DNA of 52,840 nucleotides from Natronorubrum halalkaliphilum. GTDB lineage: Archaea > Halobacteriota > Halobacteria > Halobacteriales > Natrialbaceae. Each line of letters opens with the position of its first letter. The first letter of the stretch is position 1. Both the position numbers and the translations under genes were made by a program. Under the pieces are notes generated by a model, which saw nothing but the letters and a program-made list of their open reading frames with translations, made no database searches and was not told the DNA's origin. Below are positions 42,235-45,795 of the stretch, in pieces. The stretch is taken from contig NZ_WUYX01000064.1 in NCBI RefSeq assembly GCF_009834785.1, forward strand, positions 4,167 through 57,006. Direction: 5' to 3'.

Positions 42235-42291
42235 ACGACGTTGGGAATAAAAATGCCAGTACGACTATCGCTGCCCCTGCGACGGGAACGT
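42235..42291 (+). pseudogene. 57-base fragment of mazF
   Basis: This segment matches 42761-42817 inside the intact mazF gene at 53 of 57 positions and encodes the same DVGNKNASTT core. It has no start, no rest of the gene, and ends beside a chorismate-mutase-end-like repeat. It is a relic of an earlier or recombined toxin copy. Confidence 0.8.
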
Positions 42292-42300
42292 GCAGGGGCT

Positions 42301-42327
42301 ATTTTCACGCTGCTCAAATTTGTTCAG
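42301..42327. repeat. Chorismate-mutase-3'-end-like copy 4
   Basis: Read on the minus strand this gives CTG AAC AAA TTT GAG CAG followed by CGT GAA AAT, i.e. LNKFEQREN, almost the C-terminus (LNKVEQREN) of the chorismate mutase at 45469. Orientation is the same as in the other copies. It is followed by GAAATCCAT, which also follows copy 3. Confidence 0.6.
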
Positions 42328-42418: not shown

Positions 42419-42658
42419 ATGACGAAAGTAGATGCCCGGGACCTCCAGACCAACGAGACTGACGACCGAGGCCGAATCTATCTGGGAACAGAGTACGCGA
42501 ACAAGCGAGTAACCGTCGCTGTCGTCGAAGTAGAATCTGACCATCCAGACGAGGACGAACTTGCTGCTGCGTACCGGGAGGCTTCTGCGAGTGCGGAAGA
42601 ACTTGCGGACGAGTGGGACGACGCATCGGACGAGGCGTGGGGCGAACTCGATAAATGA
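42419..42658 (+). CDS. MazE-like antitoxin
   Basis: This is a 79-residue protein. The N-terminal strand pattern RGRIYLGTEYANKRVTVAVV resembles AbrB/SpoVT-type antitoxin DNA-binding domains, followed by an acidic helix (ELADEWDDASDEAWG) likely to neutralise the toxin. Its stop overlaps the toxin start by ATGA. Confidence 0.75.
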   Translation: MTKVDARDLQTNETDDRGRIYLGTEYANKRVTVAVVEVESDHPDEDELAAAYREASASAEELADEWDDASDEAWGELDK

Positions 42659-43008
42659 GCGAGGGTACAGAGGTTCGTCGCGGTGACGTCGTTATCGTTC
42701 GGCTCGATCCTGCGGAAGGGCACGAGATGAAAAAGACTCGTCCTGCAGTAGTCGTCCAGAACGACGTTGGGAACAAAAATGCCAGTACGACAATCGTTGC
42801 ACCTGCGACGGGAACGTATCGAGGCTATCCGTTCGAGGTTCTCGCCGAAGGAGCGGAGTCGCCGTTCGAGAAAGATTCCTCGATTCGTCTCGACCAGATT
42901 CGTGTCGTCTCCATCGAAAAACGGATTCACTCAGTGCTTGGAAGCCTCGACGCAGAGTCGATGGAGGCAGTGGACGAAGCGTTGAAACTGAGTCTCGGAC
43001 TGGACTGA
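42655..43008 (+). CDS. mazF: MazF/PemK-type endoribonuclease toxin
   Basis: This is a 117-residue protein. The MazF fold signatures VRRGDVVIVRLDPAEGHEMKK (within residues 7-27), KTRPAVVVQND and DQIRVVSIEKRI are present. The arginine in KKTRP and the Ser/Thr in NASTTIV are expected for RNA cleavage. It is on the opposite strand to the other toxin-antitoxin pairs of the island. Confidence 0.8.
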   Translation: MSEGTEVRRGDVVIVRLDPAEGHEMKKTRPAVVVQNDVGNKNASTTIVAPATGTYRGYPFEVLAEGAESPFEKDSSIRLDQIRVVSIEKRIHSVLGSLDAESMEAVDEALKLSLGLD

Positions 43009-43221
43009 CGTATCTGCTCTAAATTCTCTGGGGTCGAACCCTTATTTGCTCTATACTGTTCGGTTAGTTTGCACGTATAGTGTCCGCTGGCTCCGGTGAT
43101 CAGGCCGCTGCTCAAACCATTCGTCGTGAACCAACTGAACAGCAACCGGAAAATCTCTGAGCGCTGTTCGGCTGGTACACACACTCAGAAACCCGCTTAG
43201 CGCTATCTACAGATAATCGAG

Positions 43222-43640
43222 GCGAGTGCCTCGGGGTCGTCCGGAAATCATAGATTTCCGTGGTCACGAGAATCTTCGATTCTCGAACGACTTGACCCCG
43301 AGGGTGAAGCCGACACGAATATTTATTACACAATATTTCGTAATTGAATGTAATGACCGGGAAGGATATTGAAGACCTCAATATGAAGCGGTCGTTTAGA
43401 TGATGGAACTGCGGCACCTCTCAAAACCCGCGTCTTTGGCGTGGTGAGACGGGTGTTGTCGGGCGGGGTGGAGCCGCCGACCCTCACGGACACAACGCGG
43501 GTGTTCGGGTGTTAATTCCAGTCGACCGTGAACACGGGAGGTCGAGGGGAATTACATTCGCCTGCGTCCATCCGTCCGGTTCTGGACGGCACGGACAAAA
43601 CGGTGAAGCCTCGGGGCTTGTCCCCGAGGTACTTCACTAT
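43222..43640. mobile_element. IS200/IS605-like end pair without transposase (MITE-like)
   Basis: The left part has an outer stem CCTCGGGGTC (43229-43238) pairing with GACCCCGAGG (43294-43303). It encloses two 8-bp, 3-base-loop hairpins at 43242-43260 and 43267-43285. The right part has CCGTCC/GGACGG (43572-43589) and the terminal GTGAAG-CCTCGGGG / CCCCGAGG-TA-CTTCAC hairpin (43603-43637), the form I associate with haloarchaeal IS200/IS605 (tnpB, omega-RNA/sotRNA) right ends. About 300 bases between carry no intact tnpA or tnpB. A short frame (SKPASLAW) near 43405-43447 may be a tnpB tail relic. Confidence 0.6.
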
Positions 43641-43644
43641 CCCT

Positions 43645-43662
43645 TTGTTCGACCTTGTTCAG
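43645..43662. repeat. Chorismate-mutase-3'-end-like copy 3
   Basis: On the minus strand this reads CTG AAC AAG GTC GAA CAA, then AGG GAT: LNKVEQRD. It matches the enzyme's LNKVEQREN tail until the IS-like right end, which stops eight bases away. The following bases share GAAATCCAT with copy 4 and ACAGATTC with copy 2. Confidence 0.6.
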
Positions 43663-43805
43663 GTAGCTGAAATCCATAACAGATTCGTGTGAAATTGTCT
43701 CTCGATACACACTCAGGACAACGACTACGGCCGTAGCAGACCTCCTATTGCTGTCACATTTAAAAGAATGTGCCTCATCATTCTACTGGCAGCTGTTTGG
43801 ATTGG

Positions 43806-44217
43806 CTAGAGCGTGTCGAATGAGTCGATCACGTCGCTAGTTGTGTAGGCCTCGACGACATCCTGTTCCTCGAAATCGGAGTCATCGCTCCAAATATCGG
43901 CATCACTGGCGAGAGCACACGCGATGTACAACACGTCGTCCGGGTCGGTGTCACCAATCGCTGCATCGGCCTGCTCGATATACGGATAGAACTCGCTGGC
44001 GGGAACGGCTTCGATATACTGGAAGAGGAGATCAATGAACTGTGCGACTCGATCTGGAGTCATCCCTGACTTCTCGACGATCCGTGTAGTTCTCGAGTTC
44101 TTCGTGGACAAACTCGGGTGTCACGAGATCCGGTTCGAGCGTGACGATGAGTTCGCGGGTTTTCGAGTCGGCGATGAGCGCGGAGATGATGACATTGGCG
44201 TCGATAACCAGCCTCAT
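43806..44217 (-). pseudogene. VapC-like PIN toxin, frameshifted
   Basis: The N-terminal half (MRLVIDANVIISALIADS, first catalytic Asp) is read from 44217, and the C-terminal half (VAQFIDLLFQYIEAVP, then DTDPDDVLYIACALAS and SDDSDFEEQ) in the next frame. The switch is near 44060-44095, around ENYT/RIVEKSG. The total length of 412 bases leaves one base too many for a continuous frame. It is immediately downstream of its antitoxin. A sequencing indel is possible; otherwise the toxin is disabled. Confidence 0.75.
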
Positions 44218-44457: not shown

Positions 44458-44803
44458 ACAGTAAACTATGTACACACAGAATCTTGTGTCTTTGGGTGGA
44501 AACACAGCAGCAAAAACTGACCACTAGCTTCGCGATGTTCCTCTTATCGAGACTGAGTACGGTACTCATGCGGTGTTGTTGGAACGTATTCGACGCGGAC
44601 GGGTATCCGGTCTTCCGGTTGCTCATCGACCCCGACTGAAAGCGAAGAATCCCTCAGAAACGCATTCTATATCCCTGATTAGAAGATAGAGGGTCTAAGG
44701 CGTGTGTTTTGAATCTTACCGATTCTCTCGCTGCTCGACCTTGTTCAGGTCTCTGACTGATGTTACAGATTCCGTCTACTTTGCCGGTGTCTAGTACATT
44801 TTT
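44458..44803. other. Intergenic region between two toxin-antitoxin modules, 346 bases
   Basis: This contains the likely promoter of the VapB-like gene (AT-rich patch near 44460-44520) and chorismate-mutase-end copy 2 at 44716-44748. I see nothing else. Confidence 0.5.
44716..44748. repeat. Chorismate-mutase-3'-end-like copy 2, with stop codon
   Basis: On the minus strand this encodes LNKVEQRENR plus TAA, the same ten final residues as the chorismate mutase at 45469 (which ends in TAG). The nucleotides match at 28 of 33 positions and every difference in the codons is synonymous. Upstream residues (ESVTSVRD) differ from the enzyme, so only the tail is copied. Confidence 0.75.
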
Positions 44804-45088
44804 TCAATCGTCGTCAGCTGTATACGCGCCTCCACGACGTTTGATTCGAGCAACGACCAATTGGTACTCGTCTCGATGGAAAGTGACCGCGAGACGGAAC
44901 TCACCGATACGTACCTTACGGCGTGGACTGTTTTGGAGCGGTTCGCCATAGTCTGGTGGGTCGCGCCACGGAGAATCGACGATTTCGTCGAGTTTGTCGA
45001 TAATGCGTTGCTGCTCGTTCGGATTGAGTGCATCGAGGTCGTCCTGTGCTTTCGATGCGAGTTCCCACGCCCACCCGTCGTCACTCAT
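44804..45088 (-). CDS. RelE/ParE-type toxin
   Basis: This is a 94-residue protein (WAWELASKAQDDLDALNP, RIIDKLDEIVDSPW, then KVRIGEFRLAVTFHRDEYQL and ARIKRRGG). These are the alpha-helix pair and beta-sheet of RelE-superfamily toxins, which cleave mRNA on the ribosome or inhibit gyrase. Its start overlaps the antitoxin stop by eight bases. Confidence 0.8.
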   Translation of the reverse strand: MSDDGWAWELASKAQDDLDALNPNEQQRIIDKLDEIVDSPWRDPPDYGEPLQNSPRRKVRIGEFRLAVTFHRDEYQLVVARIKRRGGAYTADDD

Positions 45089-45468: not shown

Positions 45469-45795
45469 CTACCGATTCTCACGCTGCTCTACTTTGTTCA
45501 ACTCGATCAGTAGCCGAAACATCGCTTTCACGAGATTCGCGTCGAGATCGAACTGCTCCGCGTTGTCCCCGGCCCGATCCATCACCTGCTGTTCCTGTTT
45601 CTCGTCGGTCGTCGGCAGCCCCTGTTCGTCTTTGACCTGTGCGATCGTGTCCGCGACGTACGTCCGCTGGGCGATCAGTTCCACGATCTCGCGATCGATC
45701 GACTGGATCTCCTCGCGCAGTTCGTCGAGGTCCATCTCGTCCGGTTTTCGCTGCTCGTTGCCGCCGTTCGTGGCTGTGTCGCGTTCTCGAGTCAT
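45469..45795 (-). CDS. aroQ: Chorismate mutase (AroQ-type)
   Basis: This is a 108-residue, mostly helical protein: MDLDELREEIQSIDREIVEL then IAQRTYVADTIAQVKDEQG, with a C-terminal FRLLIELNKVEQRENR. The AroQ active-site Arg and Lys residues (LREEIQ.., RTYVADTIAQVK) are in place. It converts chorismate to prephenate for Phe/Tyr synthesis. Its start overlaps the shikimate kinase stop by ATGA. Its last 33 bases are the parent of the repeated copies in the neighbouring toxin-antitoxin island. Confidence 0.85.
   Translation of the reverse strand: MTRERDTATNGGNEQRKPDEMDLDELREEIQSIDREIVELIAQRTYVADTIAQVKDEQGLPTTDEKQEQQVMDRAGDNAEQFDLDANLVKAMFRLLIELNKVEQRENR

Follow-up and report, generated by a model that had tools for sequence, protein, structure and literature searches.

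A transposase-less IS200/IS605-type element of Natronorubrum halalkaliphilum that most likely retains an ωRNA-type scaffold

A stretch of 52,840 nucleotides from Natronorubrum halalkaliphilum (hereafter the window) contains a 427-bp PATE. Very probably, this element combines IS605-type ends, a promoter-like stretch and the ωRNA-encoding part of tnpB, and could be moved by TnpA and retained by TnpB, both acting in trans. Its parts and surroundings are as follows.

43206..43210, plus strand: TCTAC target pentamer, outside the element, present before nearly all full-length copies checked and in 11 empty sites
43211..43637, plus strand: PATE, a non-autonomous IS200/IS605-type element of 427 bp, delimited by empty sites and by end-to-end relatives with unrelated flanks
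43229..43303, plus strand: left-end palindrome with an outer stem at 43229-43238 / 43294-43303
43237..43290, plus strand: two-hairpin 54-nt repeat, small-mobile-repeat-like, in the loop of the left-end palindrome and absent from copies with a simple left end
43316..43328, plus strand: candidate promoter of BRE/TATA-like sequence (CGAA-TATTTATTA) directly after the left end palindrome, proposed from A+T content
43404..43514, plus strand: remnant of the tnpB 3' coding end, frame lost, similar to tnpB 3' ends and overlapping the 5' part of the scaffold
43406..43637, plus strand: putative ωRNA-type structured RNA scaffold (12 helices and 59 pairs in the model), based on covariance model R1, covariation and matches to tnpB 3' ends
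43603..43637, plus strand: right-end hairpin with the putative cleavage site CTTCAC, nearly invariant in 41 copies
43638..43657, plus strand: predicted guide TATCCCTTTGTTCGACCTTG, outside the element at the end of a chorismate mutase gene remnant, assigned from TnpB biology

The boundaries follow from three independent lines of evidence: empty sites, full-length relatives and differing 3' flanks. The empty site TCTAC|TATCCC was found in 11 other haloarchaea (Natronococcus pandeyae, Natrialba hulunbeirensis, Natrialba chahannaoensis and eight more), which read ...GCTATCTAC|TATCCC... without interruption; in the window, 427 bp separate TCTAC from TATCCC. A genome search revealed full-length relatives of 69-77% identity that start with TCTACAG, end with GGTACTTCAC and have unrelated flanks. 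Relatives occupy at least 34 different sites in haloarchaeal genomes, and public-record matches place two close ones in Natronorubrum aibiense and N. bangense. About 41 distinct copies each have a 3' flank of their own, with the last 35 bases of the element nearly invariant among them. A previous sequence-only reading had put the interval at 43222-43640; the empty sites and the relatives correct it to 43211-43637. Nor does the element merely stop about eight bases before the third copy of a repeated tail, as that reading had it: the insertion lies inside the conserved cassette end of which this tail is a part.

Insertion took place directly 3' of the fixed pentamer TCTAC without target duplication. 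TCTAC would be the left cleavage site of TnpA and, by analogy with ISDra2, also the TAM of TnpB. The element has no terminal inverted repeats. No transposase ORF was found within the interval, in agreement with the earlier view of an interior lacking tnpA and tnpB, and a Y1 TnpA (PF01797), the mark of an autonomous IS200/IS605 element, was found neither in the element nor in the draft genome. Near-terminal palindromes related to IS605-type elements, a fixed short oligonucleotide beside the insertion, the missing transposase gene and mobile copies at many sites are all features of PATEs. The PATEs of Haloquadratum walsbyi (PMC3119063) likewise lack terminal inverted repeats and target duplication, carry near-terminal IS605-related palindromes and are too short for a transposase. 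The closest likeness, judged from the published description, is to HqIRS71, in which an extended terminal segment survives together with part of the C-terminal coding region of tnpB. The 2011 paper called that segment non-coding (PMC3119063), whereas covariation and model searches identify the segment retained here as an ωRNA-type scaffold. The suggestion of "a MITE or an orphan guide-RNA-like locus" thus holds in both halves, the element being a non-autonomous IS605 derivative whose right half is of the ωRNA type by homology and covariation.

The hairpins described earlier are real: they were found where they had been placed and are far more stable than shuffled sequence. Sequence and folding agree on a left end made of a 10-bp outer stem (CCTCGGGGTC, 43229-43238; GACCCCGAGG, 43294-43303) around two 8-bp hairpins with 3-base loops (CGGAAATC-ATA-GATTTCCG, 43242-43260; CGAGAATC-TTC-GATTCTCG, 43267-43285). 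Folded as single-stranded DNA, it has z = -5.0, and 0 of 200 shuffles are as stable. The right end, GTGAAG.CCTCGGGG-CTTGT-CCCCGAGG.TA.CTTCAC (43603-43637), is a hairpin with a 14-bp stem and a 2-nt bulge, and it beats 200 of 200 shuffles (z = -5.9). It would double as the 3' hairpin of the ωRNA just before the guide. Past the left-end hairpin, at positions 9-16, the A+T content is 0.72-0.97 vs. 0.44 for whole elements (29 distinct copies). This A+T-rich stretch, located at the same place in most copies, is a candidate promoter, and is suggestive only.

The two inner hairpins of the left end are a separate repeat nested in a simple palindrome, a point that the sequence-only reading missed. Left ends of the family come in two forms. 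The simple form, CTCGGGG-CTTGA-CCCCGAG, i.e. CTCGGGG-CTTGA-CCCCGAGG, has no inner hairpins; in the ornate form, GGGG and CTTG are separated by 54 nt (43237-43290), with two hairpins that are joined by a TGATGACGAGA-like sequence and whose stems vary in step among copies. The 54-nt module is located at the same point of other palindromes and in terminal-only elements (L022, L025, L120, L310, L324). Since it also occurs in a right end (L176), inside tnpA genes (L177, L283) and in other contexts (L306, L313, L319), it is regarded as a separate small repeat. A model of the module gave 13 matches in the window's genome, 32 in N. aibiense and 89 in G033, many of these matches being one place counted on both strands because the module is near-palindromic. 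In its behaviour, the module is like the SMR-A repeats of Haloquadratum (PMC3119063), which also target PATE/IS605 palindromes without target duplication; SMR-A is, however, about 110 bp long with prominent terminal inverted repeats, whereas the module has 54 nt and two internal hairpins.

The right half of the element is most likely the ωRNA-type scaffold of a lost TnpB, conserved among elements that are now without tnpB. The segment 43404..43514 is 75% identical to the tnpB 3' end of L224 from Natrialba magadii (element positions 199-309) and 78% identical to that of L223/L178 (element positions 238-308). In an alignment of 34 TnpB-less copies, blocks of about 0.9 identity alternate with variable stretches, which pair among themselves. 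RNAalifold predicts 59 pairs, of which 24 show changes on both sides; 96.4% of the cells are base-paired. Cells with changes on both sides number 172, vs. 63.5 in column shuffles and 5-28 when the partner is slid by 1-3 columns. A covariance model built only from the TnpB-less copies (R1) scores 234 bits at the scaffold and matches nothing else in the window. The same model finds the tnpB 3' ends of L223, L224, L225, L267, L274, L275 and L276 with 122-137 bits, and those of the TnpA+TnpB elements L180-L182 with 61-69 bits.

A maximum-likelihood tree groups the TnpB-linked RNAs in a single clade (support 100) free of TnpB-less copies; the tree is read as an unrooted split only, since a root on the TnpA+TnpB elements is unreliable because of a very long branch. 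This split and the changes among the TnpB-less copies favour conservation of the scaffold after the loss of tnpB rather than before it, the two being not fully separable.

sotRNAs/ωRNAs are located at tnpB 3' ends in haloarchaea (PMC12558985, PMC8303175). The scaffold shares with those of IS1341-type TnpB (sot2652, RF02657) the position at the tnpB 3' end, the multi-helix architecture, a right-end hairpin directly before the guide and a partial sequence match. The sot2652-type RNAs have tnpB upstream, whereas the PATE scaffold does not. No Rfam family matched the window at the gathering threshold. On the scaffold region, sot2652 gives a weak match of 21 bits, far below its cut-off of 61, and the TnpB-linked relatives also stay below it (L224, 44 bits; L223, 41 bits). 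Two other E-value-level Rfam matches in the window, to an Aggregatibacter sRNA and a miRNA, were taken as chance.

More diverged R1 loci with 66-115 bits and no TnpB match nearby (L269, L270, L277-L280, L282) have right ends such as CCACGGGCCACCGCGCCCGTGGTACTTCAC. They probably represent other families of TnpB-less ωRNA carriers.

Elements with both genes exist in relatives. In Pfam searches, divergent tnpA (Y1_Tnp, E 3.9e-38) and tnpB (Cas12f1-like_TNB, E 5.2e-17) were found between like ends, in the IS605 layout, with tnpA on the left-end side and tnpB on the right-end side. These elements (L180, L181, L182, L187) share with the PATE the TCTAC target, the left-end structure and the right-end palindrome, which bears out the earlier assignment of the ends to the IS200/IS605 type. 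The left end of L180 is ornate and 87% identical to that of the PATE over 87 bp; L181, L182 and L187 have the simple palindrome. They differ from the PATE, which encodes neither protein, also in the last bases: L180, L181 and L182 end with GGTTCAC and L187 with AGTTCAC, whereas the window's element ends with TACTTCAC. It counts against the preferred explanation that the end palindromes resemble the L180 type and the scaffold the L224 type. The TnpB gene of H15 (Haloplanus) was rejected as a parent; it lies on the opposite strand and is only a neighbour.

The PF01797 search of the window's genome, a 72-contig draft that may miss a copy, gave no match, and TnpA is present in 11 of the 12 relatives searched. 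This fits mobilisation in trans by an enzyme that the present genome may not provide. The same draft contains 14 TnpB loci and no close cognate TnpB, the best reaching 32% identity to the L224 type over the conserved region. The sequence-only reading had proposed looking for a full TnpB relative elsewhere in the genome. The search returned nothing better than these loci except a broken N-terminal fragment (G000:C45:197004-197397; 53-56% to the L224 type), which has a frame break, lies at a contig end and is either a relic of the cognate TnpB or an assembly gap. With neither partner found in the draft, the copy may be dormant in this genome. A full-length cognate TnpB of 85% identity is encoded in G033 and G054; the best complete match in N. 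aibiense, G041 and G047 reaches about 50%. Across nine genomes, over 30 TnpB-less R1 loci score above 195 bits, vs. two full-length cognate TnpB genes.

The element could also be an ordinary dead PATE or MITE, with ends recognised by TnpA and an interior that is a passive tnpB relic, its RNA-like conservation dating from tnpB-bearing ancestors. PATEs are indeed common in haloarchaea, some of them described as degenerate IS605 elements that keep part of the tnpB 3' region (PMC3119063, HqIRS71), and the lack of TnpA and cognate TnpB matches in the window's genome suits a dead element. However, the compensatory changes occur among the TnpB-less copies themselves. Identity near 0.9 in the scaffold blocks, as against 0.55-0.64 between the left end and the scaffold, is not expected of a passive relic. 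The separate clade of TnpB-linked copies points the same way, leaving some room for repeated independent loss of tnpB. In general, we consider this explanation rather unlikely.

It is very improbable that transposition as single-stranded DNA, and not a role as RNA, has preserved the interior structure. IS605 transposition does use single-stranded hairpins, and the right-end hairpin has both roles, but TnpA recognises terminal hairpins only, as established for IS608 and ISDra2. About 230 nt are covered by the conserved structure, which lies where TnpB loci have their ωRNA and retains G-U pairs in most copies (e.g. columns 6-54, 8-52, 85-103 and 210-232). That the interval encodes a protein is hardly conceivable. 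Short ORFs exist, such as 43112-43417 on the minus strand, but this one extends beyond the element, stop codons interrupt the remnant tnpB frame, which also lacks a start, and indels among the copies (A1 columns 25-29, 59 and 90-98) shift every frame. A coding function was rejected on this loss of the reading frame between copies.

The preferred explanation, an element moved and retained in trans, can be put as a sequence of steps. A Y1 transposase (TnpA) supplied in trans would excise the element as single-stranded DNA, using the end hairpins together with TCTAC and CTTCAC, and the excised element would be inserted 3' of TCTAC. The element consists of the left end, the promoter-like sequence, the ωRNA-encoding 3' part of tnpB and the right end, the remaining tnpB having been lost. 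A transcript, if made, would read across the right end and continue into the flank, and each copy would make an ωRNA with its own 3' flank as guide. A related TnpB acting in trans could cut unoccupied alleles (TCTAC plus flank), which would favour retention of the insertion. We infer transposition in trans, transcription, loading into TnpB and cleavage alike; the element may borrow the enzymes of other elements both to move and to stay in place.

In TnpB biology (ISDra2) the sequence that follows the right end on its 3' side serves as the guide; gene-drive work has been published (PMC11870625) and retention has been discussed (PMC10278001). The 11 empty sites share 18-20 of the 20 predicted guide bases directly 3' of TCTAC, so that an ωRNA from the window's copy would match the unoccupied alleles there. 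No other guide target with fewer than 3 mismatches over the first 17 bases was found in the window's genome. When the window sequence is rejoined across the PATE, it encodes LNKVEQRDSR*. In L046, L047, L050, L084 and L040, a mazEF-type cassette lies directly against a real chorismate mutase gene that ends with LNKVEQRDSR*. The rejoined frame and these loci identify the target and the predicted guide as the end of a chorismate mutase gene or of its remnant.

PATEs, IS605 ends, SMRs and haloarchaeal ωRNAs have all been described before. No claim that PATEs carry covarying TnpB-less ωRNAs was found in the literature searched, which does not include Altae-Tran 2021 and Gomes-Filho 2015. TnpB is thought to aid transposon persistence by cutting empty sites. 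The occurrence of tnpB-less elements with a covarying ωRNA in several haloarchaeal families suggests that the guide RNA alone is worth keeping, and retention could therefore be open to parasitism by non-autonomous elements. We tentatively put forward the wider possibility that PATEs are guide-RNA-only selfish elements, which have kept the ends, the promoter and the ωRNA, are moved by a foreign TnpA and retained by a foreign TnpB. If so, the window's copy would aim TnpB at the chorismate mutase 3' end in haloarchaea without the insertion. This offers a testable function for PATEs, previously catalogued as non-coding debris, and R1 is a ready means to count TnpB-less ωRNA elements. It may also explain why the 3' end of a PATE in the virus HRTV-DL1 is strongly transcribed, as reported in 2023 (PMC10544981); three different queries gave no phage match to tie that PATE to the present family.

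The surroundings of the element deserve a description of their own. A chorismate mutase gene on the minus strand (45469-45795; PF01817, E 2.6e-20) encodes a protein ending with LNKVEQRENR*, and the tail at 44717-44747 encodes the same LNKVEQRENR*. Judged by sequence, the tail copies are duplicated 3' ends of this gene, an identity that had been missed earlier. The repeated tail occurs at 42296-42326, 43638-43667 and 44717-44747, its source gene being that at 45469-45795. Toxin-antitoxin cassettes of the MazF type (42655-43005), the PIN type (44032-44217) and a ParE-like type (44804-45088) are stacked beside the gene, and each has a copy of the gene end at its border. The arrangement resembles the outcome of serial, att-like integrations into a gene's 3' end, here that of a protein-coding gene. 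On the N. bangense plasmid NZ_CP031307.1, another PATE of the family (L041, 7064-7476) is inserted at a TCTAC a short way 3' of a further tail copy, on the downstream side of the mazEF cassette's empty site; toxin-antitoxin islands have thus been hit repeatedly. A 68-nt fragment at 42235-42302, 88% identical to the mazF part 42761-42828, precedes a degenerate tail copy and is a remnant of an older cassette.
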